NCBI GenBank assembly: GCA_033182465.1
Contig: CP137323.1
Location: 248,001-312,000, forward strand
DNA from: Sanghuangporus weigelae
Taxonomy: Eukaryota > Basidiomycota > Agaricomycetes > Hymenochaetales > Hymenochaetaceae
DNA length: 64,000 nucleotides
Reading direction: 5' to 3'
Part shown: positions 9,997-53,301 of the stretch, piece after piece
How the letters are laid out: each line of letters begins with the position of its first letter
Numbering within the stretch: the stretch's first letter is position 1
The notes under the pieces: generated by a model
What the model saw: the letters and a program-made list of their open reading frames with translations, nothing else
What the model was told of the DNA's origin: nothing
Database searches by the model: none
Made by a program: the position numbers and the translations under genes

Positions 9997-11985
9997 GCGA
10001 TGCATCGTCGTGCCGTGCTAGCGACGGCCCCCGCTGTAATATATTTCAGACAAAAGATTCTTGCGGCCAGAAGCGACATCTTGCTTCTGCGCGGATCCTG
10101 TGACGGCAAAATTTGCGATGCGATGAAACAAAAATGGGTGATGTTGCGACGGCCGATCGTGACGGTCAAACTTGAGTCAACAACGCGACGCGCGTCGGTC
10201 CCGTGTTCTCGGCACGTGTACTGACAAAGCCTGTCGAGCAATGAGCTGAACTTGTATCCGCTACTTGATGCCATCATTTATCAACAAATCTGATCCATCT
10301 CACAAATTCCAATCCAGAGTCATTTCCTCTTTTCGATTCTCCCTCGCGCAATCACAAGTCGGCGATTTAAGAATGCTTCCATTTCTCTCTCTAATTACTC
10401 CCGTGGTCAGGCGATACGGTAAGCGGTTTGCACGCATGCGATCTTTCCGGTCCCGATATTCTTTGAGACTCAACGCATGCTGCGCAGCAATGCCCCCATT
10501 TTCAGTTCCTTCTCCACTGTGCTCTGATGGGCTCCTCTGCGCTTCGGATGGTTCTATACATGCTGCGTCGTCGTTCGGAATATGAATTAGGATTATTCTC
10601 GAGCCACGGCTCAGAGTACCGTTCATATTCATGATATTGCTTCTACTGTAGCACAGCACACTTCTTTGCGGTGCCATTCTAAACCATGGCTCCCATACTA
10701 TTCGGACTGTCTATCCAACGAGTATTTGTACCCGTAGTCCTTCTTCTGGCGACTCAATATGTTCCAGGGCGTATTCGGCGAAATGCGCAAGACATGACAA
10801 TTAATTTGTTCATGTCTTTTCTCACCTACGGTCGTCTGGAGTAGCCTACTCCAGATAAACCACCCCGATGTGTTAAAGACTCGCTAATTGCAAGACATGA
10901 AACCATTGGCCATCACTTTTTTGCAACATATTTTCCAGATCGGAATGCAGTGGCTGTTTGCGGACGTCGCGTAAGTGATTGGGCCGTTGTTACATTCGGA
11001 CTTCAATGCACGGTATCTCCTCGTAGTTCGAGTTTTCAAAGAAGAACCGCCGGGACCCACCATGCACGACGATCTTCTTCATTGCCACTAGTACTGTGTA
11101 GATAACTCAGGATCGATCATTATCAGCGCAGCCATGCTCAGATACTCGGATGAAGTCCTTCACTTTCCATCCAGCAGACTCGACATTCATACCTGTTATT
11201 TAAACATCATACGGAGGGGTGCGAACCAATGGACGGGTACAGATGAAATATGTTGCGCATAGCCAGCCGTGTCTGAAACAACATATTCGTCAGTATCCAT
11301 GCGGTTTAGAATCGCTTGTTTCACAGAGAACTCATAGGATCCCGCATGCAGACAGCAAATCCAATGTTATGGCAATACAGTATACGGAGGCATTGGTCAT
11401 GTATCCTGACTGAGAATCCCGTCAGACCGACAAACCAGCCTCATACATGTAAATCTTTTTTGCCGCGCTAATTGGGCCTTTTCTTTACAGATTCTGTCAC
11501 ATTCTGAAGGGAAATGTTCTCTGCTGCTGTGCTCTCATCTTTAGAGCCCTGTGCATGGTTTATACCAGTGGAGGGTCTAAGGATGGGTTTCGTCTTTGCC
11601 CGTGGCATTTTTCAAACGTTCTCTCGCGTTTGGTTCTATCCTCTCACTCAAGCCATATTACTTCGCTTACTCGTCCTGCACAGGAATTACTCAGAAGGCG
11701 AGGCATTACCAACGTGTCCATCATGATAGAAAGCAAAACAGCCCTCTCCCTTTCTCTTCTTCCAACCACCACCATCTCTGTCTTCCAAGTGAGGGCATCG
11801 ACTTAGGTGGCACCACGGCGATAAGTAGCATATCGAGCTTAACAGGTATGCTGAGCCTGGGAACATCGCCCGCTACAAACGAGCTCTCAACTGAGCCTAA
11901 CAACTGGTACTTAAGTAATGCACATATCTTCCCATGTTGAGTCGCTTACTGATGACAAATGTCAGGGATCTACTGATAGTACCCG
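9997..11985. other. gene-free stretch of about 2 kb
   Basis: No recognisable protein on either strand. A minus-strand open frame of about 125 codons at 10300-10677 and one at 9870-10277 overlapping the tannase start have no features I can name. The right end grades into the N-terminal part of the decayed CHAT-TPR gene. Confidence 0.4.
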
Positions 11986-13221
11986 TCAAGCCGGATCCGT
12001 TTCGAAGAATCAGGAAATCGAGAAGACTGACTTAGCTATTTCTTCCAAAAAAACTGCACCAGACTCTTATTATGATGATCATCCTGAGCGCCGCGTAGAA
12101 CTGCTTTGGCTTGCCCATTTCCTTTACACGCGACACGAGCGATGGCAGGAAGTTGACGATCTGGAGAGAGCATAATACTAACTAGGTCGTGGCGCGCTGG
12201 AGCTTCGACCCGAGGGTCATCCCCATCGTTCTCTGCCGTTGTCCAATCTTTCGAACAGCCCCAGGAAGTGCTTTGAGCATGGAGGGAGGACAGAGGATCT
12301 CGATGAAGTCATCTCGATGGGACGTGCCGCATTGGAGCCTAAAGGGTCACGCGTATCGTCCTTTGTAAGTATCTCTGGACAATCTTGCGACTAGCCTTAG
12401 CACGCGCTTTCGGCACGGTGGGAGGATGGGGGATCTCAAGGAAGCCACGTGCCGCGCTCGAGCTTCGACTGGAGGGTCAAGCGTATCGTTCTTTGTTGCC
12501 GGCCAAATTTGCAAGCAACCTTGTGACGCGCTTTGAACACAGCTGGAGACTGGAGCATATCGAGGAAACCATTTCGCTGCAACGCATCGCGCTGGAGCCC
12601 GAACTGGAGGGCAGCTCGTATCGTTCTTTGTCTCCCTCTGATCGATCTTGCCGACTTTGGACGGGCAGATGGTTTTGAGGCATCCGTCCAATCTTTGTCT
12701 CTTTGAGGCTTGCTGCCTTTCACCGGTTCTCGAGCTTTACAACTCGACTTGAGGCTGCATACGGGTGGACGACAATGACTCGATCTCATGTTCACAATAC
12801 CCTCATTGGAGCTCATAGAACTGCTATGTCTCTCTTTCAGCGTGCAAGCTCGTTAGGGACTCGTGAGAACACCTTGGCTTCAGGAACAAAGTGTGATCGA
12901 TGAGGCATTGGCACATGTGCGATGATTGTCGGAAGAGCAGGAAGCATTGATAAACGACATACGTCGAATACCTGGATACGATACGAAGACTTCCTCAAGA
13001 CCAAAACGTTCGACGCTATACGGCAAGCAGCCGCGGTGGGACCCGTCATTGCGCTTAACCACTCCAAGTACAGATGCGACGCATTGATAGTTCTCACGCG
13101 CGAGAATGATCCGTGTGTCTGTGTTCCACTGGACACATCCTTTTGTACCGATGCCATTGATTTGTACGAGGAGTTCATACGAATTCGCCGAACATTTGGG
13201 GTTGGTTCGGGCGAGTATGAC

Positions 13222-13226
13222 GAGGT
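13222..13226. repeat. target site duplication GAGGT of the Copia element
   Basis: GAGGT directly precedes the left LTR and is repeated at 20567-20571 directly after the right LTR. Five base pairs is the normal duplication length for Copia elements. The two copies mark the exact insertion point inside the CHAT pseudogene. Confidence 0.95.
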
Positions 13227-13771
13227 TGTGAGCGAGGAGACGAGCACGCAAAGGAACACTATAACAAATGTATTCTCAGTAGATTGCGAGCAGCGCAATC
13301 GTCTGAGTAGCATACCTATAACAAATGTATTCTACCAGAGAATGTATGTAAATAAAGTACAGGACAAAAGAGAAAAGTGGTCGAAGCTCACCTCAGTAGA
13401 TTGCGAGCAGCGCAATCGTCTGAGGGTATTGCTGAATGAGATGCAACACTTTTATACTACAATAAGGGGTTTTTGTGGAACTGAATGGTTTCGAGTACCA
13501 AGCATAAAAGAGACACAAACATCAATTCAAAAGCGTAACCGGGGGATAGAAAACTATCCAAGAATGAATAAACAGTAAGGGTAAACACAAGTTCGAGAAA
13601 GATAAGCTCGGGCGAGACATTCAGCCACGAGCGGTGTCCAATAACTATGGAGAATGCCTCGTGCCCTCGAGACGAGGGCTGTGAGTCCGTAACCTCGGTG
13701 GTTCCCGCCGATCCGAGGTTAATCACGCTCGGGTATCCCCCCGGGATACTTCGCCGGATTGTGCTCCAACA
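13227..13771 (-). repeat. 3' LTR of the Copia element
   Basis: 545 bp, starting TGTGAGCGAGG and ending CTCCAACA on the plus strand. The same length and, as far as compared, the same sequence as the copy at 20022-20566. A purine tract (GAGGGGGAG on the minus strand) lies directly inside it, as expected for plus-strand priming. Confidence 0.95.
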
Positions 13772-13778
13772 CTCCCCC

Positions 13779-15099
13779 TCAATCCGAGCGAAGTCCTAGT
13801 CTCGACGCAAAATGTTTTATCTTGAAGGACGGTAGCGGTTTGATGAGTGCATCAGCCACCATGTCGCCCGTAGGACAGTAGACAACTCGGATAGAGCCCT
13901 GTTCGACGATCCAGCGAATGAAATGATACCTTATGTCAATATGTTTCGTCCTCGCGTGGTACTGATGGTCTTTTGTGAGTGCAATGGCTGATTGGTTGTC
14001 AAGAAATAGAGGTGTCGGCTCAATCAACGGTTCGAATATTTGTCCAATGAGTTGGCGGAGCCAGAGCGCCTCCTTTGCGGCATGAGTCGCCGCAACGTAT
14101 TCACTCTCTGTTGTGGAGAGTGAGACAATTTCCTGCTGTTTTGAGTACCACGAAACGGCTCCCCCATCAATCAGGAACGCATTTCCTGATATTGCACGCC
14201 TATCCTCCTGCATGCTTCCATCTGCGTCCGAAAATCCAACCAGGCCGCTGGAGTCGACCTCTACAATCCCGTACGTTAATTTGTAGTCATAGGTTTTCTT
14301 CAAATACCTGAAGACACGTTCCACCGCCCTCCAGTGAGTAATTCCGGGATTCTTTGAGAAACGAGACAAAAGAGTCACAGCAAAAGCGATATCTGGCCGA
14401 GTGGCTACTGCAGCATACATTAGAGATCCCAAGGCCTCACGATAGGGCAGGAGCTTCATTTGAGCGATCTCCTGGGCAGTCTGGGGACATTGCGAGCTGT
14501 CCAATTTGACGTTCGGGTCCATGGGCGAGGTAAGTTCCCCGGCCAGATGAAAACCAAATTTTTGTAGTACGGAATTAATGTAGGTAGACTGAGAGAGGGA
14601 GACCGTCCTCAGTTCCCGGTTTCGTTTGATTTGGATGCCTAGGAGCCAGTGGACAGGACCAAGGTCAGTGATTTTGACGTATTTCGAGAAACTCGATTTG
14701 AATTCGTCGATCAGCGCGGATCGACTGGCCGCTAAGGTACAATCGTCAACGGACACAGCCACTACCATCAGATCCGGCAGTAAGGAGCGGAAATAAATGG
14801 CTTGATCGACGTCGCACCGCTTAAAGCCGAGACGATCGACCATAATCCAGGTGAATTTTTGATACCATCTTCGTCCTGACTGCTTTAGTCCGTATAGTGT
14901 CTTCCTCAACCTGAGTACTTTTCCCTCTGTTCCTATTGGTTTGTACCCTGGTGGATGGTGCATATACACGATCTCGTTCGCTTCCAACTCTCCATTTAGG
15001 TATGCGCTCTTCACATCGATTTGATCGATCTCAAGGTCTAAACGGGCCGCTATTGCCAGGATTGTGCGAATCGAAGCAAGTTTCGCGACGGGAGCATAT
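13779..15099 (-). CDS. Copia pol part: reverse transcriptase and RNase H
   Basis: Contains the reverse transcriptase core (QIDVKSAYLNGELE, the LYGLKQSGRRWYQ region, and a VSVDD catalytic box) and the C-terminal RNase H domain (GFSDADGSMQEDRRAISG, STTESEYVAATHAAKEALW, HIDIRYHFIRW). This part is divided from the upstream part of pol by the nested unit at 15105-16643. Treated as a fossil part of the element, not a host gene. Confidence 0.93.
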
Positions 15100-15104
15100 G
15101 TGTC

Positions 15105-16643
15105 TGTTACGAAAATTGTGGTTATCTAATACGGCGTGGGCTAAATTTTACACACCGAGTTGCGATGCCAAATCAAGACTATTTCGAAAGGCTACTACGG
15201 CAGAACAGTGGTGGCGACTCAAGAGTAGCAAACCACGGATCGTCTGGAGAAGACACGGAGGACTCTAATGGTTTGCAATTAGGACTAACTAATATGCACA
15301 TTGGACATACTCCACCGCCGGAACGCAGTCTGGCGGCGATGGAAGAAAGGAATGTCGCAAGGTATACGGAACTCCTGCAACGAAGACATTATCGGCGTGG
15401 TGCAACTAGAAGATTTGTACACGAGAGCTTGGTGTGCGCCAATTGTTACTTGGCCTACCAACGAAGCTGGGTACTGGCGGAATGGCTCATGAAGAACTTC
15501 ACGGAACGGTTAGTGTCAAGGGAAGCAGCCGATGTCAAGATTCGGCATAAGCCCGGACCCTCGGAACGAACAGAAGACCAACCATTACCGAACCGCGGAA
15601 TGAGCGCATACGACCATGAGGTATCCATATGGCTTAGTGATAGGGATGTCTATGCATTGAAGGTCGGCGTGCGAGCTTGGATCAATCAGCATCGTCACCA
15701 GACCTTGTGCAGTCACACGGCAGTGGAAGTAGATTGGCCAGTTTACAAGCGGCCACCTTCGGACATTGAACATCTTACGGAAGAAGCGATAGAACGCTTG
15801 ATGCAGGCTTGGCGGGCGTCAGAGCCAGGGGTAATTACAGTTGACGAGTGGAATGGCCGCGAGCACTTTGGACAGAGGCTACGGCTAACCACGGGCCCAG
15901 GACTACAACTATCGGACATCGAAGTCGCGGCGAGGCACAGAAGGAGTGTAGCGGAGTACACTCATGCGCCGAGAGAAGATCGGCAAGCTCTGCCGATCTC
16001 TAACCCTGATATCACTATCTCCCCCATGATCGAGTATTAAGCGGCAGAAGCTCGGCCCGGAAACGGAGCGCCAGAGAAGCGATAGCTTGGCAACTATCAT
16101 GAGAACCCGTCTGGGAACGGAGAAGGATCGCGGGGTAGAGATAAGGAGAAATTTACATGTGATAACGATGGCAGATCGGAGGAAGCACGGAAGAAGCTTC
16201 TCGAAGCATCGGGGTAGTAGGACTCAAACAAACCCTCCTAATATGGTAGAAGTATTGTGATTCAACACTAGAGGAAAGTATCGGTGTTGGCACCAGAGTA
16301 GAGTACTGGTGTCAGAGAAAACATATTGTCTAGACCAATAGCGAGGCTGTAGTCGGTAGTAATAGGTAGTCGGTACTATTTAGTAAATAGGTTATTTAAG
16401 GGCCAGCTGAGCGGGGCATTGTCCCTCAGCAAAATTATTTTGTACTCTCAATCGAAAACTGTACCCTTTGATTGAAACCCTGTTCTACTACTGAGGTCAA
16501 GCTTGAGCCTATCGCTCGCTTCTAAAGTAGTACATCTATAACCTTCGTTCCATCTCCAATCAATTATCATCAGAAGGAATAAGCAGGGACTTGTTCCGGT
16601 ACGCTTAGACTAGCCACCTCGTCTAAAAACACTGGTCCTAACA
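15105..16643 (+). mobile_element. nested LTR-like unit of unknown family inside Copia pol
   Basis: A 1539-bp unit starting TGTTACGAAAAT and ending CCTAACA, with GTGTC directly on both sides (15100-15104 and 16644-16648). TG...CA ends and a 5-bp duplication are the marks of integrase-mediated LTR element insertion. I see no pair of terminal repeats inside it. It therefore looks like a solo LTR of unusual length or a non-autonomous element. A TATA-like TTATTTAAG near 16391, about 250 bp before the right end, fits the U3/R layout of an LTR read on the plus strand. It carries one long open frame (15165-16040). It must be younger than the Copia copy it interrupts. Confidence 0.75.
15165..16040 (+). 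CDS. 291-residue open frame inside the nested unit, function unknown
   Basis: I do not recognise this protein. It begins with ATG about 60 bp inside the unit and runs uninterrupted for 291 codons. The product is charged, rich in Arg, Glu and His. It has two Cys close together (CANCY) but no complete zinc-knuckle pattern, and no reverse transcriptase, integrase or protease signature. If the unit is a solo LTR, the frame lies in its U3 part, an unusual place for a gene. It could be a gag-like protein of a non-autonomous element, a captured gene or a chance frame. The undamaged length argues mildly against chance, but recent insertion would also explain why it is still open. Confidence 0.4.
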   Translation: MPNQDYFERLLRQNSGGDSRVANHGSSGEDTEDSNGLQLGLTNMHIGHTPPPERSLAAMEERNVARYTELLQRRHYRRGATRRFVHESLVCANCYLAYQRSWVLAEWLMKNFTERLVSREAADVKIRHKPGPSERTEDQPLPNRGMSAYDHEVSIWLSDRDVYALKVGVRAWINQHRHQTLCSHTAVEVDWPVYKRPPSDIEHLTEEAIERLMQAWRASEPGVITVDEWNGREHFGQRLRLTTGPGLQLSDIEVAARHRRSVAEYTHAPREDRQALPISNPDITISPMIEY

Positions 16644-16648
16644 GTGTC

Positions 16649-18964
16649 GAAGTAGTCGATTCCCTCAACCTGGCTGAACCCCTGTGCCACCAGACGGGCC
16701 TTCCTCCGCACAATACTCCCAGCTGAGTCCCTTTTTATCTTAAATACCCACTTTGATCCGACAACATTCGCCCCCACAGGCGGTTTCTCCAGGACCCAGG
16801 TATTGGCTGCGCGCAGCGCGCCCAATTCCTCCTGGATGGCCCTTTCCCACTCGCTCCATTCAGGGAGGCTTCGTGCCTCCTGGATGGTCGCCGGCTCAAG
16901 CCCTTCCAGCTCGCTCGTGGCAGCCACAAGGTCGTACTCCTCATCGTAATCGTCCAGGACTGTTTCCGCAGCTTCAATATCCCTGGGAGCTATGTTCATG
17001 CCCTTCGGAATGGTTCCATCGCGTTTCCAATGAGTCTGGGCGCCTTCACCGGCCGTGATTCGTCTCAAGTAGGCCGATGGTGCATTGCTGCGGGACGACC
17101 TGCGTAATGACGCAGAGTTGTCAGTGATTGTCTCTTGGTGAGTGATGTTCGGTTCGGAGGGTTCGGTAGTAGGCGGCTGACCGACAGGGGCAGGTGGCTG
17201 AGGGAGCGTCTCGACCATGGGAGTGGACTGGACCGCAGCAGGTGATTCAGCCCGAGATAAAATTTTGGACGTGCTGCGGGAGGAGGAATGACTGGGGGAC
17301 CCCTCCTTAGGGGCTATCGGCACTGACGGCTCGCCTGGAGTACCGTCATCTAATTCCTCCCCCTCGAGCCGATCAGTGATCGTACTAGGTGAGAAGTACA
17401 CGCTCCTTTCCACACTGATACTCTTTGTTTCGGGCCAGTAAATTCGTTGGCCGTTTGAAGAGTCGTCAAAACCTAGCCAGCGGCCTTCACGAGCTCGTCC
17501 AGATAGTTTAGGGCCACTCGGATCGTGTACCCAACATTTGGTACCGAACTCCCGTATTCCTGTAACGTCGGGTTTCTCTTTCACTAGAGCTTCCCATGGT
17601 GTCTTATCGCCCAAAACGCGCGTGGGGAGTCTATTCTTTAGATAGACGGCATGCCTAGCTGCCTCAGCCCAGAGTGTTTTGGGTAGGCCGCTGGCATGCA
17701 ACATGGCACGTACACGCTCCAGGATCGTCCTGTTGAGTCTTTCGGCCACTCCATTATGCTCGGGGGTATCATGGACGGTGAGTTTCTGTTCGATTCCCTT
17801 GTTTTTCAGGTAATCAACGAAATCGTTACTCATATATTCTCCACCCCGGTCCGTATGCAGAACGCGGATCTTCGTACCATGTTGGGTGTTCACCCAGGCC
17901 TCAAACTTCTTGAATGCATCTGGTACGTCCGATTTCCGCTTTAGGAGGTATATTTTGCTGATTCGCGTCGCATCATCCGTGAAGCTGACAAAATAATGCC
18001 TCCCACCAAGGGATCGAGTAGGGGAGGGCCCCCAAACATCGGAATGGATCTCCGTACCGAAATCGCGTGCTCTGGGATTGCATTTTTCCTTTGCAATAGG
18101 ACTGCGAGTAATTTTACCATACGCGCAACTTTCACAGAAACTAGGCCCAGTGTCCATTTGAGTGAGACAAAAACCCGTCACGATGCCTTTCGTGATGATG
18201 TCCGCGGCGGTTCGGGGGGATATGTGTCCCATGCGTGCGTGGATTTCCATAGCAGTGAGCTTCTCCTCGGTGCTGTTTATTTCGTCTCGTTCCTCATTGT
18301 GCGCTGACTTCGATACAAATTTGTAGAGTCCCTTAGGGGATCTAGCAACCTCACCAACTTGAGAACCAAGTTTGTCGAACAAACGGCACTTTCCATCCCG
18401 AAATACAACCATTAGGCCTGCAGCATCAAGCGCGCCGACGGAGATCAAGGTATAATTCACTTCGGGAGAATACAGGACATTGGTGAGTAACATGGCACTT
18501 GAGCACCTGGGCAACTGAACTTCCAGCTCCCCCTGACCTGTCGCATGAAACACCTGCCGATTCGCGGCCCTCAGGGCCTTCGGCTGGATGTCTGCGAGCT
18601 TCGCAAAGTCATCCCGGTATGGGGAGATATGCCTCGTCGACCCGGAGTCGATTATCACTCGCCTTTCGCAATTTGCGACCTCTTCTGGGCGAACTACTGT
18701 CGCCGCAGTCTCGGTATCAGACTCATCCTGCTCAGATTCATCGTCGGTGAGTCCTTGCTCCTCATCCTCATCACTGATCTCTATCAATGAAGGAGACGTT
18801 ATCATCTTCGTCATCGAGTGCGAACATGCCGGCGGACAGATCCCAATCATCAAAGTCGAGATCTTCAGAATTAGAAGTTCTTGCTTGACCTTCTCGGTCC
18901 AGCACTTCATCATCGTCATCATCTGACCAGTCCCAGGCCGCATTTGCACAATCCCAAACCCCAT
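16649..18964 (-). CDS. Copia pol part: protease, integrase and start of reverse transcriptase
   Basis: Shows the aspartic protease motif IIDSGSTRH, the pre-integrase region (HARMGH with a later CESCAYGK), the integrase core (HSDVWGP, FVSFTDDATR, LHTDRGGEY, HNGVAERLNRT), a Ser/Pro-rich linker and the start of reverse transcriptase (WSEWERAIQEELGAL, VVGSKWVFKIK). Its first part overlaps the end of gag in another frame, an arrangement known in this family, where a frame change during translation gives the fused product. Recorded as part of the element only. Confidence 0.93.
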
Positions 18965-19943
18965 CGGAGTCTGAGTCGAAAGTGACGTTCGCCGAGTCTT
19001 TCGGCTTTCCAGGCTGACTATTGCCTGGTTTCGGTGAGTTTCCTGCTAGCTTAGGGCATCTCGACTGAAAATGTCCTGGTTGTCCGCAGTTGTAACAGGT
19101 TCGTTGCTCCCTGGGCACGAACTTGCGCTTTCCTTTCGAGAATCGAGGAGGGCGAGACGAATTTGGAATCAATGCAAGGGCTTCGTCCTTGGGCTGCTTA
19201 TTTGCCTTGCCAAAACCGTGTCTATCATTTCTCTTCGTCTTCTTCATGCGCTCAGCCTCCTCCACAATGATGTGAATCAGGATCTCCGGATCCACGTACT
19301 TCATTGCTTCAAGCTGCTCGACCGTGGGCGGTGTGGGACTCACAGAAGCGAAGTTACGTGCTGCAAGTGCAGCAGAAGCCAGCTGAGTGGATGCGAAGTT
19401 GCTGAGGTATCTGGGGAGGCTGGAGATGATAGTCGAACGGTAGTCCGAGTCAGTGACAGTGACTCCGGACTGGGCAAGCGTCTGACGCTTGGTTCGAAGG
19501 TCGTTCAGGAACTCACGAATGTCCCCTCCTTCGGGGAGCTTTGATTCTAGGAACTCGGCGCGCAGAGAGGTCTGCGCATACACGGACTTCTCAGTGTACT
19601 CGCGGGTGACGGCATTCCATTTTTCGGCGCACGTTTCGAAACGAGTGACACTCACGAGTGTGGAGTCTGGGAGTCTTTGGGACAAAAGGTACAGTCCTAT
19701 GTCTTCGTCCTTCTGCCAAGCGTCCTGATCCGTATTAGACTGATCCAGTACTTCTGCGGGGATAGGCTCGTCTTCATCGACGTCTGCCAACTCAGGGCGG
19801 GGCTTCGAACCATCGAAATGCCCCCACTTGCCCTTGGCCTTCACGGCCAACTGGAAACGTATTGAAAATAGTAACCAGTTCTTTCCACTGGGATCAAGCG
19901 TCGGAACAGACGTAGGAAGGGTGTCATGGGACTGCGTAGACAT
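18771..19943 (-). CDS. Copia gag
   Basis: A 390-residue capsid-type protein. It begins MSTQSHDTLPTSVPTLD and has the Gag region around WNAVTREYTEKSVYAQTSLR. A basic linker leads to one CCHC zinc knuckle (CYNCGQPGHFQSRC), and the tail is very acidic. Size and order are normal for a Copia gag. It lies directly after the 5' LTR and primer site. Confidence 0.93.
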   Translation of the reverse strand: MSTQSHDTLPTSVPTLDPSGKNWLLFSIRFQLAVKAKGKWGHFDGSKPRPELADVDEDEPIPAEVLDQSNTDQDAWQKDEDIGLYLLSQRLPDSTLVSVTRFETCAEKWNAVTREYTEKSVYAQTSLRAEFLESKLPEGGDIREFLNDLRTKRQTLAQSGVTVTDSDYRSTIISSLPRYLSNFASTQLASAALAARNFASVSPTPPTVEQLEAMKYVDPEILIHIIVEEAERMKKTKRNDRHGFGKANKQPKDEALALIPNSSRPPRFSKGKRKFVPREQRTCYNCGQPGHFQSRCPKLAGNSPKPGNSQPGKPKDSANVTFDSDSDGVWDCANAAWDWSDDDDDEVLDREGQARTSNSEDLDFDDWDLSAGMFALDDEDDNVSFIDRDQ

Positions 19944-20009
19944 GATCTAATATACTCGCTTTGCAGGTCAAAAAAGACTGATCAATATTTGAGCACAGCC
20001 GGTCAAGCA

Positions 20010-20021
20010 AGGCTCATAACC
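20010..20021 (-). other. Copia primer binding site (initiator tRNA-Met anticodon region)
   Basis: The minus strand reads GGTTATGAGCCT directly inside the 5' LTR. Its complement, GGCTCATAACC, is the anticodon stem-loop sequence of fungal initiator tRNA-Met. Priming from the internal half of that tRNA is known for Drosophila copia and related elements. Confidence 0.8.
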
Positions 20022-20566
20022 TGTGAGCGAGGAGACGAGCACGCAAAGGAACACTATAACAAATGTATTCTCAGTAGATTGCGAGCAGCGCAATCGTCTG
20101 AGTAGCATACCTATAACAAATGTATTCTACCAGAGAATGTATGTAAATAAAGTACAGGACAAAAGAGAAAAGTGGTCGAAGCTCACCTCAGTAGATTGCG
20201 AGCAGCGCAATCGTCTGAGGGTATTGCTGAATGAGATGCAACACTTTTATACTACAATAAGGGGTTTTTGTGGAACTGAATGGTTTCGAGTACCAAGCAT
20301 AAAAGAGACACAAACATCAATTCAAAAGCGTAACCGGGGGATAGAAAACTATCCAAGAATGAATAAACAGTAAGGGTAAACACAAGTTCGAGAAAGATAA
20401 GCTCGGGCGAGACATTCAGCCACGAGCGGTGTCCAATAACTATGGAGAATGCCTCGTGCCCTCGAGACGAGGGCTGTGAGTCCGTAACCTCGGTGGTTCC
20501 CGCCGATCCGAGGTTAATCACGCTCGGGTATCCCCCCGGGATACTTCGCCGGATTGTGCTCCAACA
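20022..20566 (-). repeat. 5' LTR of the Copia element
   Basis: 545 bp, the same length as the copy at 13227-13771 and identical wherever I compared. It holds the element promoter on the minus strand and is followed outside by the GAGGT target repeat. Confidence 0.95.
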
Positions 20567-21412
20567 GAGGTGCTTCCACGAGTAATGAAGATGCTGTGGG
20601 TTAAAGTCGTCTCCAAAGCCGTCCAAAAGCTTATAGAACTCGAGATCGGGGAGGGATCGCGCATTTGGTGATGTCCTACCTTAGTGCTCTCTGTCTTCGC
20701 TTTCCCCACCGCAGGTCCGTATAAAGGCTGGGACGGCAGCATCAAGTACCTCCTGGATGCCTACACCTCGTCCTACTCTCCGATTCTGACGTCCCTAATC
20801 AATGCACGATCTGGTGTCCAAATGGGCGGTGGAAGGATGCTCTTCGTCGCCGGCACGAAACTTCCTTTGACCGAGTAATGAGTGGACATAAATACAATTC
20901 GCCGCTTCAAGCACCTCCTTGGTAAACGCGCAAGTCCAGACATCGTACTCAGACAGCATCAGAAGGCGAACTGGGTGCATTCTGTGTGCCTCGGGTTTCT
21001 GGCTAAGGAGCCCTTCAAGTCCTTTCTCAAGATTTCTGGAGGCCGGCTCACGTCGCTGGGCATCGCGCGAGCCAACCTTCCGAATGCAGAATTTGCATTT
21101 CTTTCGGCTTGCCATACTGCGGAATAAGGCCCTCATTCCGCAGTGGATGAAGTACTGCGCGTAGCAGTGGGTATGCAGTTCTGCGGGTTCGAGAGTGTGG
21201 TCGGCACGATGTGGAAGTTACGTGACGAGGACGGACCTTTCCCTTCTAGTGCTGTTTATAGAAGAGGAAGGGAAGATTAGATTCAAGAGGGCTGCCGGGG
21301 TCGTGCGTCGAGCCACATTGAGCCTGAGGGTGAGGGGTATGTGGAGCCAAATGACGGGGAGGTGGATGTTATGGCCGAGCGATGGGTCAACCTTGTGCAG
21401 ATAGGAGCCTAA

Positions 21413-49179: not shown

Positions 49180-50736
49180 TTAGGCACCTATATGCACAAG
49201 GTTGACCCATCGCTCGGCCATAATATCCGCATCTTTCTCTGTTCCCATATCCCCGCTCTCCCTCAAAGACAAGACAGCTTGACGAACAGCCTCAGCAGCC
49301 CTCTTGAATCTAAACTCCCCTTCCTCTAGCTCACCCATGAGGTGTCTGTAAACAGCACCAGAAAGGAAAGGTCCGTCCTTGTCAAGCAGCTTCCACATTG
49401 TCCCGACCACACTTCGGAACCCGCAGAACTGCATACCCGCTGCTAAGTGCAGTGCTTCATCCAGAACAGAGTTAGGACTTTGTTCCGCAGTATGGCAAGC
49501 TGAAAGAAATGCAAACTCTGCATTTGGAAGGTTGGCTCGCGCGATGTCCAGCAAGGTAAGTCCCCCACCAGGAAGCTTGAGAGAAGCGTTGAAGGGTTCG
49601 TCATCAAGTTGTCCATGGCACACAAAATGCACCCATCGCGCCTTTTGAAAGTGCTTGAGCACTGCTTCCGGGTTTGCAGAATCATCAAGGAGAGGATTGC
49701 AGCGACGAATTCTATTAATAGCCTTTCTTTCTTTCTCGACCGATGGAAGCTTCGTGTCAGTAACGAAGAGAATCCTTTTACCCCCAAGTTCGACACCATA
49801 TCGTGCATTGATTAGTGATGTGAGAGTCGGAGTATAGGACGAGGTATAGTCATCCAGGAGATACTTCATACTATCGTCCCAGGCTTTGTACGGACCTGCG
49901 GCGTGCAAGGGGAAGGTAGAGAGCACTGAGGTAGGACACCACCAAATGCGTGATCCCTCCTCGATCCCAAGTTCTTTCGGTTTTTTAATGACTTTGGAGA
50001 CGACTCTCTCCCACAACGTCTTCATTACTCGGCGAAGCACCTCGTCATACTCGCCGGATCCTTCTCCAAGTGTTCGGCGAATCCGTATGAGTTCCTTGTG
50101 CAGATTGATAGTATCGGTATAAAAGGCTTCGTCAAGCGGAACGCAGACACATGGATCATTCCCGCGTGCAAGAATAATCAGTGCATTGCATCTATACTCG
50201 GAGTGATTGAGAACAATGACAGGTCCTTCTGAGGCTGCTTGCTGAAAAGCGCCGAATGTTTTGGCCTTGAGGAAGTCTTCAAACCCGGGTATTCGACGAA
50301 TGTCATTAATTAATACCTCCTGTTCTTCCGACAATCGTCGCACCTGTGCCAACGTCTTGAAACGAGTTTCAGCTGCAAAAATCGCGCTCGAATCCAGCGT
50401 ACACGATTCGGTCACTGTTATAAGAGCTTCTAGTCGACGGTTACAGACCTCAAATCTTTCAGCAAGCGTTCCATCCACTCTTGAAAGCCGTTCGAGCGAG
50501 GTCCTGCACCCACGCATATGTGACCAAAGCAGTGCTCTCCCTTGCTCGAGGAACTCGATGGCCAGAGTGTATTGACCTTTGTCGACGGCATGTGAGGCCG
50601 CGTCTAACGCAAGTGACTGATAGTGACTATGATTACGGAGAAAATTGTGCTGTTCGGACAGAGTCGGTTTAACGGTGAGGGCACTGAAGGAGAGACATGA
50701 ATGCTCTATGAGCCTCAATGAGAGTGCTGTAATCAT
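49180..50736 (-). CDS. CHAT-domain half of a CHAT-TPR protein
   Basis: CHAT domains are caspase-like cysteine peptidase domains; the fungal CHAT-TPR proteins are abundant in mushrooms and their roles are mostly unknown. This open frame of 518 residues first carries helical segments (YQSLALDAASHAVDKGQYTL, FLEQGRALLWSHMRG). It then has the full CHAT domain: EDFLKAKTFGAF, GPVIVLNHSEYRCNALI, GSRIWWCPTS, the catalytic His in RWVHFVCHGQ, the catalytic Cys in FLSACHTAE, and GFRSVVGTMW. It ends AERWVNLVHIGA. The His-Cys pair is intact. The N-terminal half of the same protein lies at 50741-52551 but is not in one continuous frame with it, and the locus as a whole seems broken in about three places. 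It may be an inactive gene or a split, still-expressed CHAT unit. Confidence 0.8.
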   Translation of the reverse strand: MITALSLRLIEHSCLSFSALTVKPTLSEQHNFLRNHSHYQSLALDAASHAVDKGQYTLAIEFLEQGRALLWSHMRGCRTSLERLSRVDGTLAERFEVCNRRLEALITVTESCTLDSSAIFAAETRFKTLAQVRRLSEEQEVLINDIRRIPGFEDFLKAKTFGAFQQAASEGPVIVLNHSEYRCNALIILARGNDPCVCVPLDEAFYTDTINLHKELIRIRRTLGEGSGEYDEVLRRVMKTLWERVVSKVIKKPKELGIEEGSRIWWCPTSVLSTFPLHAAGPYKAWDDSMKYLLDDYTSSYTPTLTSLINARYGVELGGKRILFVTDTKLPSVEKERKAINRIRRCNPLLDDSANPEAVLKHFQKARWVHFVCHGQLDDEPFNASLKLPGGGLTLLDIARANLPNAEFAFLSACHTAEQSPNSVLDEALHLAAGMQFCGFRSVVGTMWKLLDKDGPFLSGAVYRHLMGELEEGEFRFKRAAEAVRQAVLSLRESGDMGTEKDADIMAERWVNLVHIGA

Positions 50737-50740
50737 AAGA

Positions 50741-52551
50741 TCAAGTCATTGACGTCCACTCGTGCGCAACATCAAGACGGGTTGCGATGTCGGAGAACGG
50801 ATGAAGCGTAGCAAGTCTCAAAGATTGAATGGCTTCCTCAAGATCCTCCGTCCTCCCGCCGTGCTCAAAGCGCGTCTTAAGGCAGTACGCAAGATTACCC
50901 AGCAACAAAGAACGATCCGGATATCCCTCAGGCTGAAGAGTCAGAACGGCACGTTGCATCGAAATGGCTTTCTCGAGATCCTCCATCCTCCGGACGTGCT
51001 CAAAGCGCGCCTTAAAGCTGACCGCAAGATTAGCTAATGACGAAGAACGATCCGGGTGACCCTCCGGTTGAAGCTCCAGTGCGGCATGATGTAGCGAGAT
51101 GGCTTCCTCGAGATCCTCCATCCTCCGATCGTGTTCAAAGCGAGCCCTAAGGCCGATCGCAAGATTGGCCAACGACAAAGAACGATCCGGATGACCCTCC
51201 GCTCGAAGTTCCAACGCCGCACGGTGCAGCGAAATGGTTTCATTGAAATCATCCATCATCCCGACGTGCTCAAAGCGAGCCCTAAGGCTGATCGCAAGAT
51301 TGGCTAACGACGAATAATGGCTCGGGTGACCCTCTAGTCGAAGCTCCAGTGCGACACGGTGCAACGATATGGCTTCCTCGAGATCCTCCATCCTCCCCTT
51401 GTGCTGGAAGCGCGTTGCAAGGTTGGTCACAAGGTTGGCCAACGACAAAGAACGAACCAGATGGCCTTCTGATCGAAGCCCCAGTGCAGCGCGATACTTT
51501 GATATGGCTTCCTCGAGATCCTCCATCCTCCCGTGCTGCTCAAAGCGTGCCCAAAGGTTGGTCGCAAGATTGGCGAATGACGAAGAACGATCTCGGTGAC
51601 CCTCTGGACAAAGCTGCCCATCCCATTGAGATGGCTTCCTCCATCCTCCCGTCATGGTGGAAGTGCGTCTTAAGGCTGGTCGCAAGATATTTGACGACCA
51701 AGAATGTTGGGGATGACCCTCTGGTAGAACCTCCAGCACGGCGCGGTGTAGCGAGATGGCTTCCTTGAGATCCTCCATCCTCCCGAGGTGCTGAAAGCGT
51801 GTCCAAAGACTGGTAGCGATATTTCCCGACGACGAAGAACGATCCGGATGACCCTCCGGTTGAAGGTCCAGCGCGGCACAGTATAGCGAGATGGCTTTCT
51901 CAAGATCCTCCGTTCTCCCGCCGTACTGGAAGCGCACCAAAAGACTGGTCGCAAGATTGGCTAAAGATAAAAAATGAGCCGGATTACCCTGTGGTCGAAG
52001 CTCGAGTACGGCGCGTTCCATCGAAACGGCTTCCTCGAGATCCCCCATCCTCCCATGGTGCTCAAAGCGCGTCGCAAGGCTGGTCGCAAGATTAGCTAAC
52101 GACGAAGAATGATGCGGATGACCCAGTGGTCGAAGCTCGAGCACGGCGCGATCCATCGAGATAGTTTCCTCGAGATCCTCCATCCGCCCATGGTGCTCAA
52201 AGCGTGTCCAAAGGCTGCTCGCAAGATTGGCCAACAACGAAGAACGATCCGGGTGACCTTCCGGTCGAAGCTCCAGAGTGGCGCGTTCTATCGAGATGGC
52301 TTCGTTGAAATCTTCCATCCTCCTGCTATGGTGGAAGTGCGTATTAGGGCTGGTCGCAAGATTGCCCAATGTCGAAGGACGACTCGGATACGGATGACCC
52401 TCCGGTCGGAACTCCAGCGCGGCACGACTATTATTGCTCTCTCCAGATCTTCAGCTTCTTGCCATCGCTCGTGTCGCGTGTAAAGAAGACAGGCGAGCCA
52501 ATGCAATATTGCATCGCGATCAGGATGCTCATCAGGACAAAAGTCCAGCAC
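50741..52551 (-). CDS. TPR-repeat half of the CHAT-TPR protein
   Basis: An open frame of 542 residues (to 52369), with the preceding N-terminal segment (HWLACLLYTRHERWQEAEDLE) in another frame up to 52551. The long frame holds eleven full copies of a 45-residue helical repeat and a partial twelfth. The consensus is of the type EDLEEAISLHRAALEL followed by RPEGHPDRSSSLANLA and a TRFEHHGRM end, with one badly aligned copy in the middle. Such repeats form a TPR-like superhelix for protein binding. High similarity between units points to recent unit duplication. The companion CHAT half follows directly. Translation into one protein is doubtful because of the breaks noted there. Confidence 0.7.
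50830..52340 (-). repeat. tandem 135-bp coding repeats
   Basis: About eleven direct copies of a 135-bp unit, each encoding one 45-residue TPR-like repeat. DNA similarity is obvious by eye (for example the recurring phrase GAGATCCTCCATCCTCC on the plus strand). Such arrays can change copy number by unequal exchange. Confidence 0.85.
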
Positions 52552-53301
52552 AGCTTGCTGGAAAGAAATAACCGAGTCAAGGTCTTCACGATTTCCGGAT
52601 TGTTCGAACCGAGACCAAGAAGATCTGTCTTGACGACTTCTACGAACTAATATCTGCCGATTAATATTGTCATCAGCCAGCGATCAACAGGCAGTATATG
52701 TGCATTGTGTACCTGTCGTAGGCGCAAGCGCTTAACTGAGAGGAATTTGGTTAGATGTGATGTTCCCAAGTTCTGCTTGACTGTTAATCTCGATATACGG
52801 CTAAGCTCGGGGGCGTCGCTTGGGTCGACGACCTCAGCTATTGTGAAGACGGAGATGGTGGTGGTTGGAAGAAAGAGGGGGAGATGGCTGGACTGCTTGC
52901 TTTATATCATGATGAACGGGTTGATGATGCACCGCCTTCCGTGCAATTCCATCCAGGACGGGTCAGCGAAGTGCTACGTAATAATCTAATTATCTACACT
53001 CCAGACATAGGCGAGAAGCACTGAATTAAAATGCCACACGGATTGTGGTAGTATCGATTTAAGTCTCTGAAGTCGTTTTTTTAGAATAGTACATCTGTGT
53101 CTGTACTAACTATGTACATACATATGTAGGTGCAGAACAAAAGAGGCTATGAACATCATGTTGGATCAGGTTGATTCGCGCCTAAACTTGGGTCACAAAC
53201 CAAAACAAAAATGAGGAAATGCGAAGATATCGCATGTCGTTAGTATGGGATAAAATCCATGGATAAAGCAAGGAATGACTCAAAACGCGTTTTGAGGAAA
53301 A
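52552..53301. other. intergenic, CHAT-TPR promoter side
   Basis: May hold a first exon of the CHAT-TPR gene, which I could not define. No other gene was recognised. The right part is the 3' flank of the HMG-box gene. Confidence 0.35.

Follow-up and report, generated by a model that had tools for sequence, protein, structure and literature searches.

A long terminal repeat of a Ty3/gypsy element in Sanghuangporus weigelae with a protein gene under purifying selection

Long terminal repeats (LTRs) are generally regarded as control regions that encode nothing, and a solo LTR as a dead footprint. A 1.54-kb unit in the window (the whole 64-kb stretch of DNA analysed, C6:248001-312000) raises the question of whether such a repeat can also be a gene. 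The first-pass annotation had seen in this unit TG...CA ends, an exact 5-bp repeat on both sides, a TATA-like site near 16391 and an open frame of 291 codons, with no visible LTR pair, and had left the choice between one long LTR with the frame inside its U3 and a small stand-alone element. It expected flanking copies in the genome, a protein search with the frame and dN/dS across copies to decide. The ends, the repeats and the frame of 291 amino acids were all confirmed: the unit begins with TGTTACGAAA at 15105 and ends with GGTCCTAACA at 16643, with GTGTC on either side (Table 1).

Table 1. Features of the unit and of the element around it, in window coordinates
Feature	Coordinates	Strand	Evidence
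Target-site duplication GTGTC, left copy	15100..15104	.	Sequence read
Target-site duplication GTGTC, right copy	16644..16648	.	Sequence read
Very probable solo LTR, Ty3/gypsy chromovirus family A, 1539 bp, TGTTA...TAACA	15105..16643	+	At least 40 spanning copies, 12 pairs
U3 (boundary inferred)	15105..16427	+	Self-priming match
U3 gene, 291 codons	15165..16040	+	Stop-free copies, dN/dS, simulation
Codons of C91-x-x-C94, possible first half of zinc site	15435..15446	+	Kept in every A and B row covering the site
Codons of H178-x-x-x-C182, possible second half of zinc site	15696..15710	+	C182 in every covering row, H178 in all but one
TATA-like site TATTTAA, putative LTR promoter	16393..16399	+	35 bp before inferred RNA start
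Inferred R start, 11 nt complementary to bases just after the 5' LTR	16428..16438	+	Self-priming match
Copia element, target of the LTR insertion (context, outside the unit)	13227..20566	-	Identical LTRs, target repeat, split RVT_2

The unit as an LTR and its copies in the genome

The genome searched comprised 33.87 Mb in 13 contigs. The unit is single-copy within the window, and a genome DNA search with it, in which 40 of 113 candidates were scored, returned at least 44 matches. At least 40 of these span the unit at 98-100% identity (39 over bases 1-1539 and one over 3-1539), and the remaining four among the matches listed were partial, at 75-81% identity. The copies sharing this sequence are called family A below.

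LTR pairing was based on a protein search of the genome with the 291-residue frame, in which 64 of 112 matches were full length (residues 1-290 or 1-291) and stop-free, 63 of them at 95-100% identity and one at 90%. These 64 frames gave 12 same-strand pairs with a spacing of 10,663-10,665 bp, so that the LTR reading held, and 40 frames had no partner. Two of the unpaired frames lay 12,006 bp apart with a common outer repeat, ATGTC; given this spacing and repeat, they appear to bound an enlarged element. In the paired copies that were fetched, TTATAATTTT stood directly after the 5' LTR and GGAGGAGGAA directly before the 3' LTR. An outer 5-bp repeat, compared by eye, was common to all seven pairs with both ends among the 30 fetched loci (the 12,006-bp pair included), and the two LTRs of six pairs differed at 0, 0, 2, 3, 0 and 0 of about 1540 bases. 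Of the 30 fetched copies, 13 were lone LTRs flanked by a perfect 5-bp target repeat.

Solo LTRs usually arise by recombination between both LTRs of one insertion. The sequence of the unit was found at both ends of full elements, and one target repeat bounds it; no long direct repeat or internal terminal-repeat pair was found inside it. The lack of a visible LTR pair is true of the copy at 15105-16643, other copies being paired, and it follows from this copy being a solo LTR. We are confident that the unit is a solo LTR carrying a selected U3 gene.

One full element of family A (C12:1613831-1626032, read in pieces) consisted of an LTR, a frame of about 600 codons, gag, pol, a purine tract and an LTR. 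With gag and pol between the LTRs of this element and with the pairs at fixed spacing, the earlier suggestion of a single long LTR spanning the whole unit was borne out. Pfam domains in gag were Retrotrans_gag and zf-CCHC, and those in pol, read in two pieces, were in order aspartyl protease, RVT_1, RNase H, Integrase_H2C2, rve, SH3_Tf2-1 and Chromo. Protease, reverse transcriptase, RNase H and integrase followed by a C-terminal chromodomain were thus present in the one element read, and by this domain order family A is a Ty3/gypsy chromovirus. The pre-gag frame of about 600 codons (L007:3173-4539, L078:1-931) is overlapped by a 307-codon frame and had no match in Pfam.

In Tf1, self-priming relies on a primer site that pairs with the 5' end of the RNA. 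In family A, the bases that directly follow the 5' LTR had an 11-nt complement at LTR position 1324, 35 bp past TATTTAA, and 13 and 10 of 2000 shuffles were as good in the two copies compared. In another LTR family of the genome, family C, a 12-nt self-priming match likewise lay 35 bp past a TATA-like site, with 3 of 2000 shuffles as good. We infer self-priming with an RNA start at window position 16428, downstream of the frame; U3 would then end at 16427 and contain the frame wholly, in keeping with the first-pass annotation, whose TATA-like site is the TATTTAA at 16393. No obvious promoter was seen within the LTR in the 60 bp upstream of the U3 start codon. Directly ahead of the 3' LTR, a 90-bp stretch that includes the purine tract was 97.8% identical between L006:1411-1500 and L061:2872-2961, and the stretches preceding it in L006 and L061 were 88.5% and 83% identical. 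The constrained 90 bp might serve expression of the U3 gene or plus-strand priming.

Selection on the 291-codon frame

When copy L001 was compared with ten diverged copies (L062-L065, L072-L077), dN/dS ranged from 0.11 to 0.30. The corresponding values were 0.15-0.35 against six young copies, in which changes were few, and 0.19-0.46 in twelve other family A pairs. We then placed the observed substitutions randomly among sites of the same base, with 1000 trials per comparison. The observed number of synonymous codons was not reached in any of 1000 trials in all ten L001 comparisons; among three comparisons without L001, two again gave 0 of 1000 and L064-L065 gave 11 of 1000. Stops were depleted less uniformly: in six of the ten comparisons, 0-49 of 1000 trials had as few stops as observed, and in the other four the numbers were 131 (L073), 145 (L074), 393 (L075) and 74 (L076).

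Only the plus frames served as controls for this codon pattern, the three minus-strand controls being one identical frame and left out of account. In the U3 frame, the ratios of synonymous to non-synonymous codons were 38:30 (L062), 48:63 (L063), 50:50 (L065) and 79:63 (L064). The other two plus frames of the same copies had 8-20 synonymous to 46-119 non-synonymous codons, and the plus frames in the rest of the LTR (L062, L063, L065) had 7-19 to 37-70, so the synonymous excess was confined to the U3 frame among the plus frames tested. One stop appeared in L063 in DNA mapping, and the genome protein search listed none for this copy. The 291-codon frame is a real gene under purifying selection, as the dN/dS comparison proposed at the outset had been meant to tell.

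Relatives of the gene in LTR families B and C, and features of the protein

In the genome protein search, the family A frame also met six matches at 21-23% identity (E 1e-7 to 1e-4). One of them, L061, is a 245-codon frame that starts at base 57 of a distinct solo LTR; the A frame starts at base 61 of its own. This family B solo LTR (L061:933-2434) is 1502 bp long, has the ends TGTTAG...CTAACA and is flanked by the target repeat CCTAT, and two further single copies, L066 and L067, have the repeats CATGC and GAGTG. With its repeats (L061:928-2439), the L061 solo LTR was seen to be inserted in an old relative of family A, beside the chromodomain of that element. A candidate full-length B element on C11 (spacing 7,450 bp) was dropped because its outer flanks had no repeat, and among the B copies examined no complete element came to light.

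Neither blastn nor tblastx aligned the family A LTR with the L061 stretch at E 0.01; the link between A and B is one of gapped protein comparison, with blastp E values down to 2e-12 and genome protein searches at 2e-7 and 6e-8. The A-B alignment score was equalled by none of 300 shuffles under each of four scoring schemes. For family B, dN/dS was 0.13-0.29 between L061 and seven copies and 0.22-0.47 in 15 other pairs. Mapping of eight B copies showed stops or shifts in seven, L061 alone being free of both. On the evidence of these sequence comparisons, the B frame is a homologue of the A U3 gene, at about 22% identity, and is likewise under purifying selection.

Family C was recognised in a reverse transcriptase (RT) search at E <= 1e-30, which returned 118 matches, 19 at 95-100% identity and 99, those of family C, at 49-50%. 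Its LTR was placed at L079:1333-2849 (1517 bp), the start being set by the purine run and TG of one copy, and contains a 213-codon frame upstream of the TATA-like site (L079:1688-2329). All 150 copies of this frame that were scored, of 430 candidates, were 99-100% identical and stop-free. Comparison of L079 with six copies gave dN/dS values of 0.13-0.40, with one or two stops in five of the six, and ten other pairs gave 0.12-0.58. The 213-codon U3 frame of family C is constrained.

Whether this frame belongs with those of A and B was less clear from the scores. For B and C, the numbers of shuffles as good, of 2000, were 0 with BLOSUM45, 29 with PAM250 and 108 with BLOSUM62; under BLOSUM45, BLOSUM50 and PAM250 the B-C score exceeded those of 28 unrelated pieces, which under BLOSUM62 it did not. 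In HMMER, a B HMM scored the C frame below the best shuffles, and hhalign gave B-C a P of 0.3. Protein comparisons of the A and C frames found no similarity. An hhalign comparison of A1 with A4 was excluded from the evidence as circular, since A1 already contains B rows. We consider it quite possible, although still somewhat doubtful, that a single LTR-resident protein family is involved: the U3 gene would predate the divergence of A and C (about 50% RT identity) and have been passed down the chromovirus lineages A, B and C, each insertion would seed the gene twice, and solo LTRs would be dispersed copies able to act in trans for full elements.

Family C has, in addition, a pre-gag frame of 344 codons (L079:3249-4283). 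Its U3 frames and RT matches recur every 10,779 bp in an apparent tandem array with shared LTRs (C6:1181508-1214483), and its at least 99 near-identical RT copies point to a recent burst.

In the protein alignment of A and B, C91xxC94, N143, Y149, D159 and C182 are common to all covering rows. The CxxC...HxxxC motif (Table 1) suggests a compact zinc-binding protein. Two AlphaFold2 models, one with A placed first and one with B placed first, had mean pLDDT values of 47.7 and 64.8; in both, helices are followed by four predicted strands, a further helix and two strands. With these low-to-medium confidence models, Foldseek returned no match at E <= 0.001 in the PDB or BFVD. Pfam gave no convincing family for A (best DUF7419, E 0.05) or B (best YdjM, E 0.07) and none at E 0.001 for the C frame; the best PHROGs match, at 0.07, was unconvincing, and of 53 pattern matches in IMG/VR none was confirmed. 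A search of PDB sequences with A alone met p53 chains from E 0.005 over residues 58-147, which we took as chance because they were absent when the A+B+C profile was used.

Alternative explanations, possible role and genomic setting

Three other explanations were weighed. The frame might have arisen by chance in a long LTR and be open in most copies only through their youth; most family A copies are indeed 98-100% identical, with LTR pairs as similar as described above, so openness alone proves little, and the depletion of stops was not significant at 5% in four of the ten diverged comparisons (L073-L076). The low dN/dS across the ten diverged copies, the failure of every simulation of these ten comparisons to reach the observed synonymous number and the equivalent position of a homologous frame in LTR B all speak against it. 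This explanation is very improbable, the codon-position pattern having already refuted it unless the alignments are wrong. Equally hard to credit is a small non-autonomous element, of the TRIM kind or another, that moves on its own at 1.54 kb and has its own gene; such an element would accommodate the 40 of 64 full-length frames lacking a partner at 10.66 kb and the 13 single copies with perfect target repeats. Solo LTRs would give the same picture, however, and the sequence ends full elements with a primer site, gag, pol and a purine tract, so the stand-alone option of the first-pass annotation was not supported. The unit, in which no long direct repeat was found, also does not hold the short LTR pair, primer site and purine tract of a TRIM.

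LTR elements are known to capture genes, and the gene might instead be a host gene taken into the LTR as a passenger, of use to the host or to nobody and not to the element. In its favour, the searches linked the gene to none of the gag, pol or env families. Against it stand purifying selection within both A and B and the survival of the gene in two LTR families no longer alignable in DNA, which together argue for long use of the gene in the LTR. In addition, the matches of two genome protein searches up to E 10 look like A and B copies and their fragments, although a diverged or intron-rich host gene could escape such searches. We regard a captured passenger as improbable. The explanation we prefer, a solo LTR of a 12.2-kb Ty3/gypsy chromovirus lying in a young copia element and having in its U3 a genuine gene of the element, is on the whole very likely.

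As judged from the anatomy of the element, the genomic RNA would begin in R, leaving the 5' U3 outside the RNA and making the 3' U3 its last gene. Reverse transcription would copy U3 to both ends, so that the gene would be present twice per element and once per solo LTR. Because the gene would be missing at the 5' end of the RNA and last at its 3' end, its expression would need a subgenomic or spliced RNA or a promoter at the LTR edge; the protein might conceivably come from a subgenomic or spliced RNA reaching into the 3' LTR, or from such an edge promoter. The product may bind nucleic acid or a host protein and, as an accessory protein, support transcription or integration of the element or its escape from silencing. 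As a specific assignment, a zinc-site accessory protein with these functions is put forward tentatively and is rather doubtful; among possible roles, we think the likeliest is that of an accessory factor by which the element promotes its own transcription or integration or is protected from silencing.

MMTV sag and lentiviral nef are retroviral genes that lie in or reach into U3 and are copied to both ends by reverse transcription. Family A likewise has a selected protein gene in U3, but it is an env-less retrotransposon in a fungal host and its frame would lie wholly in U3. No convincing match appeared in Pfam, PDB sequences or Foldseek (the latter with low-to-medium confidence models), and on these searches we take the U3 gene as an analogue and not a member. 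A gene in the U3 of an LTR is thus known in retroviruses, and no report of a selected gene in a fungal LTR was recognised among the papers of one open-access library.

Family A resembles chromoviruses of the Tf1/sushi type in the order of its pol domains, with chromodomain and SH3_Tf2-1, and in a primer site able to pair with the inferred RNA start (11 nt, and 12 nt in family C). It differs from them in its 1.54-kb LTR with a selected U3 gene and in its pre-gag frame of about 600 codons. The chromodomain gypsy element crapaud of Podospora anserina has LTRs that are most variable in their 5' half; in the parts of that report consulted it is described with two ORFs, gag and pol, and no LTR gene is mentioned (PMC10787394). 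LTR retrotransposons of bdelloid rotifers have an extra ORF3, typically expressed from spliced messages, which like the U3 gene of family A is near the 3' end of the element; as far as the consulted text describes them, these ORF3s are separate genes after pol and none is placed inside the LTR, unlike the A gene (PMC5408684).

In two LTR families or more of this genome, the LTR doubles as a selected gene. Should the protein still be produced from solo LTRs, remnants of old insertions could help live copies or hold them back. Annotation in which LTRs are masked as non-coding may also overlook a class of accessory genes.

The copia element that surrounds the unit has identical LTRs of 545 bp and the target repeat GAGGT, and its RVT_2 (reverse transcriptase) domain is split by the unit into parts that match profile positions 2-55 and 84-242. 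Since the unit lies inside an element with identical LTRs, its insertion is probably young. Elsewhere in the window, a TPR-repeat frame and a CHAT-domain frame adjoin at 49180-52369 on the minus strand (region 49180-52972). DNA related to this gene region flanks the copia element at 12908-13226 and 20567-21412 (region 11660-21412), and from these two flanks the copia element seems to be inserted in a second copy of the TPR/CHAT gene. TPR, CHAT, HMG-box, FHA and tannase domains were found beside gypsy and copia elements, which fits a fungus. At 945-1665 there is an old family C LTR fragment, at 93%, that ends exactly at the 3' end of that LTR.
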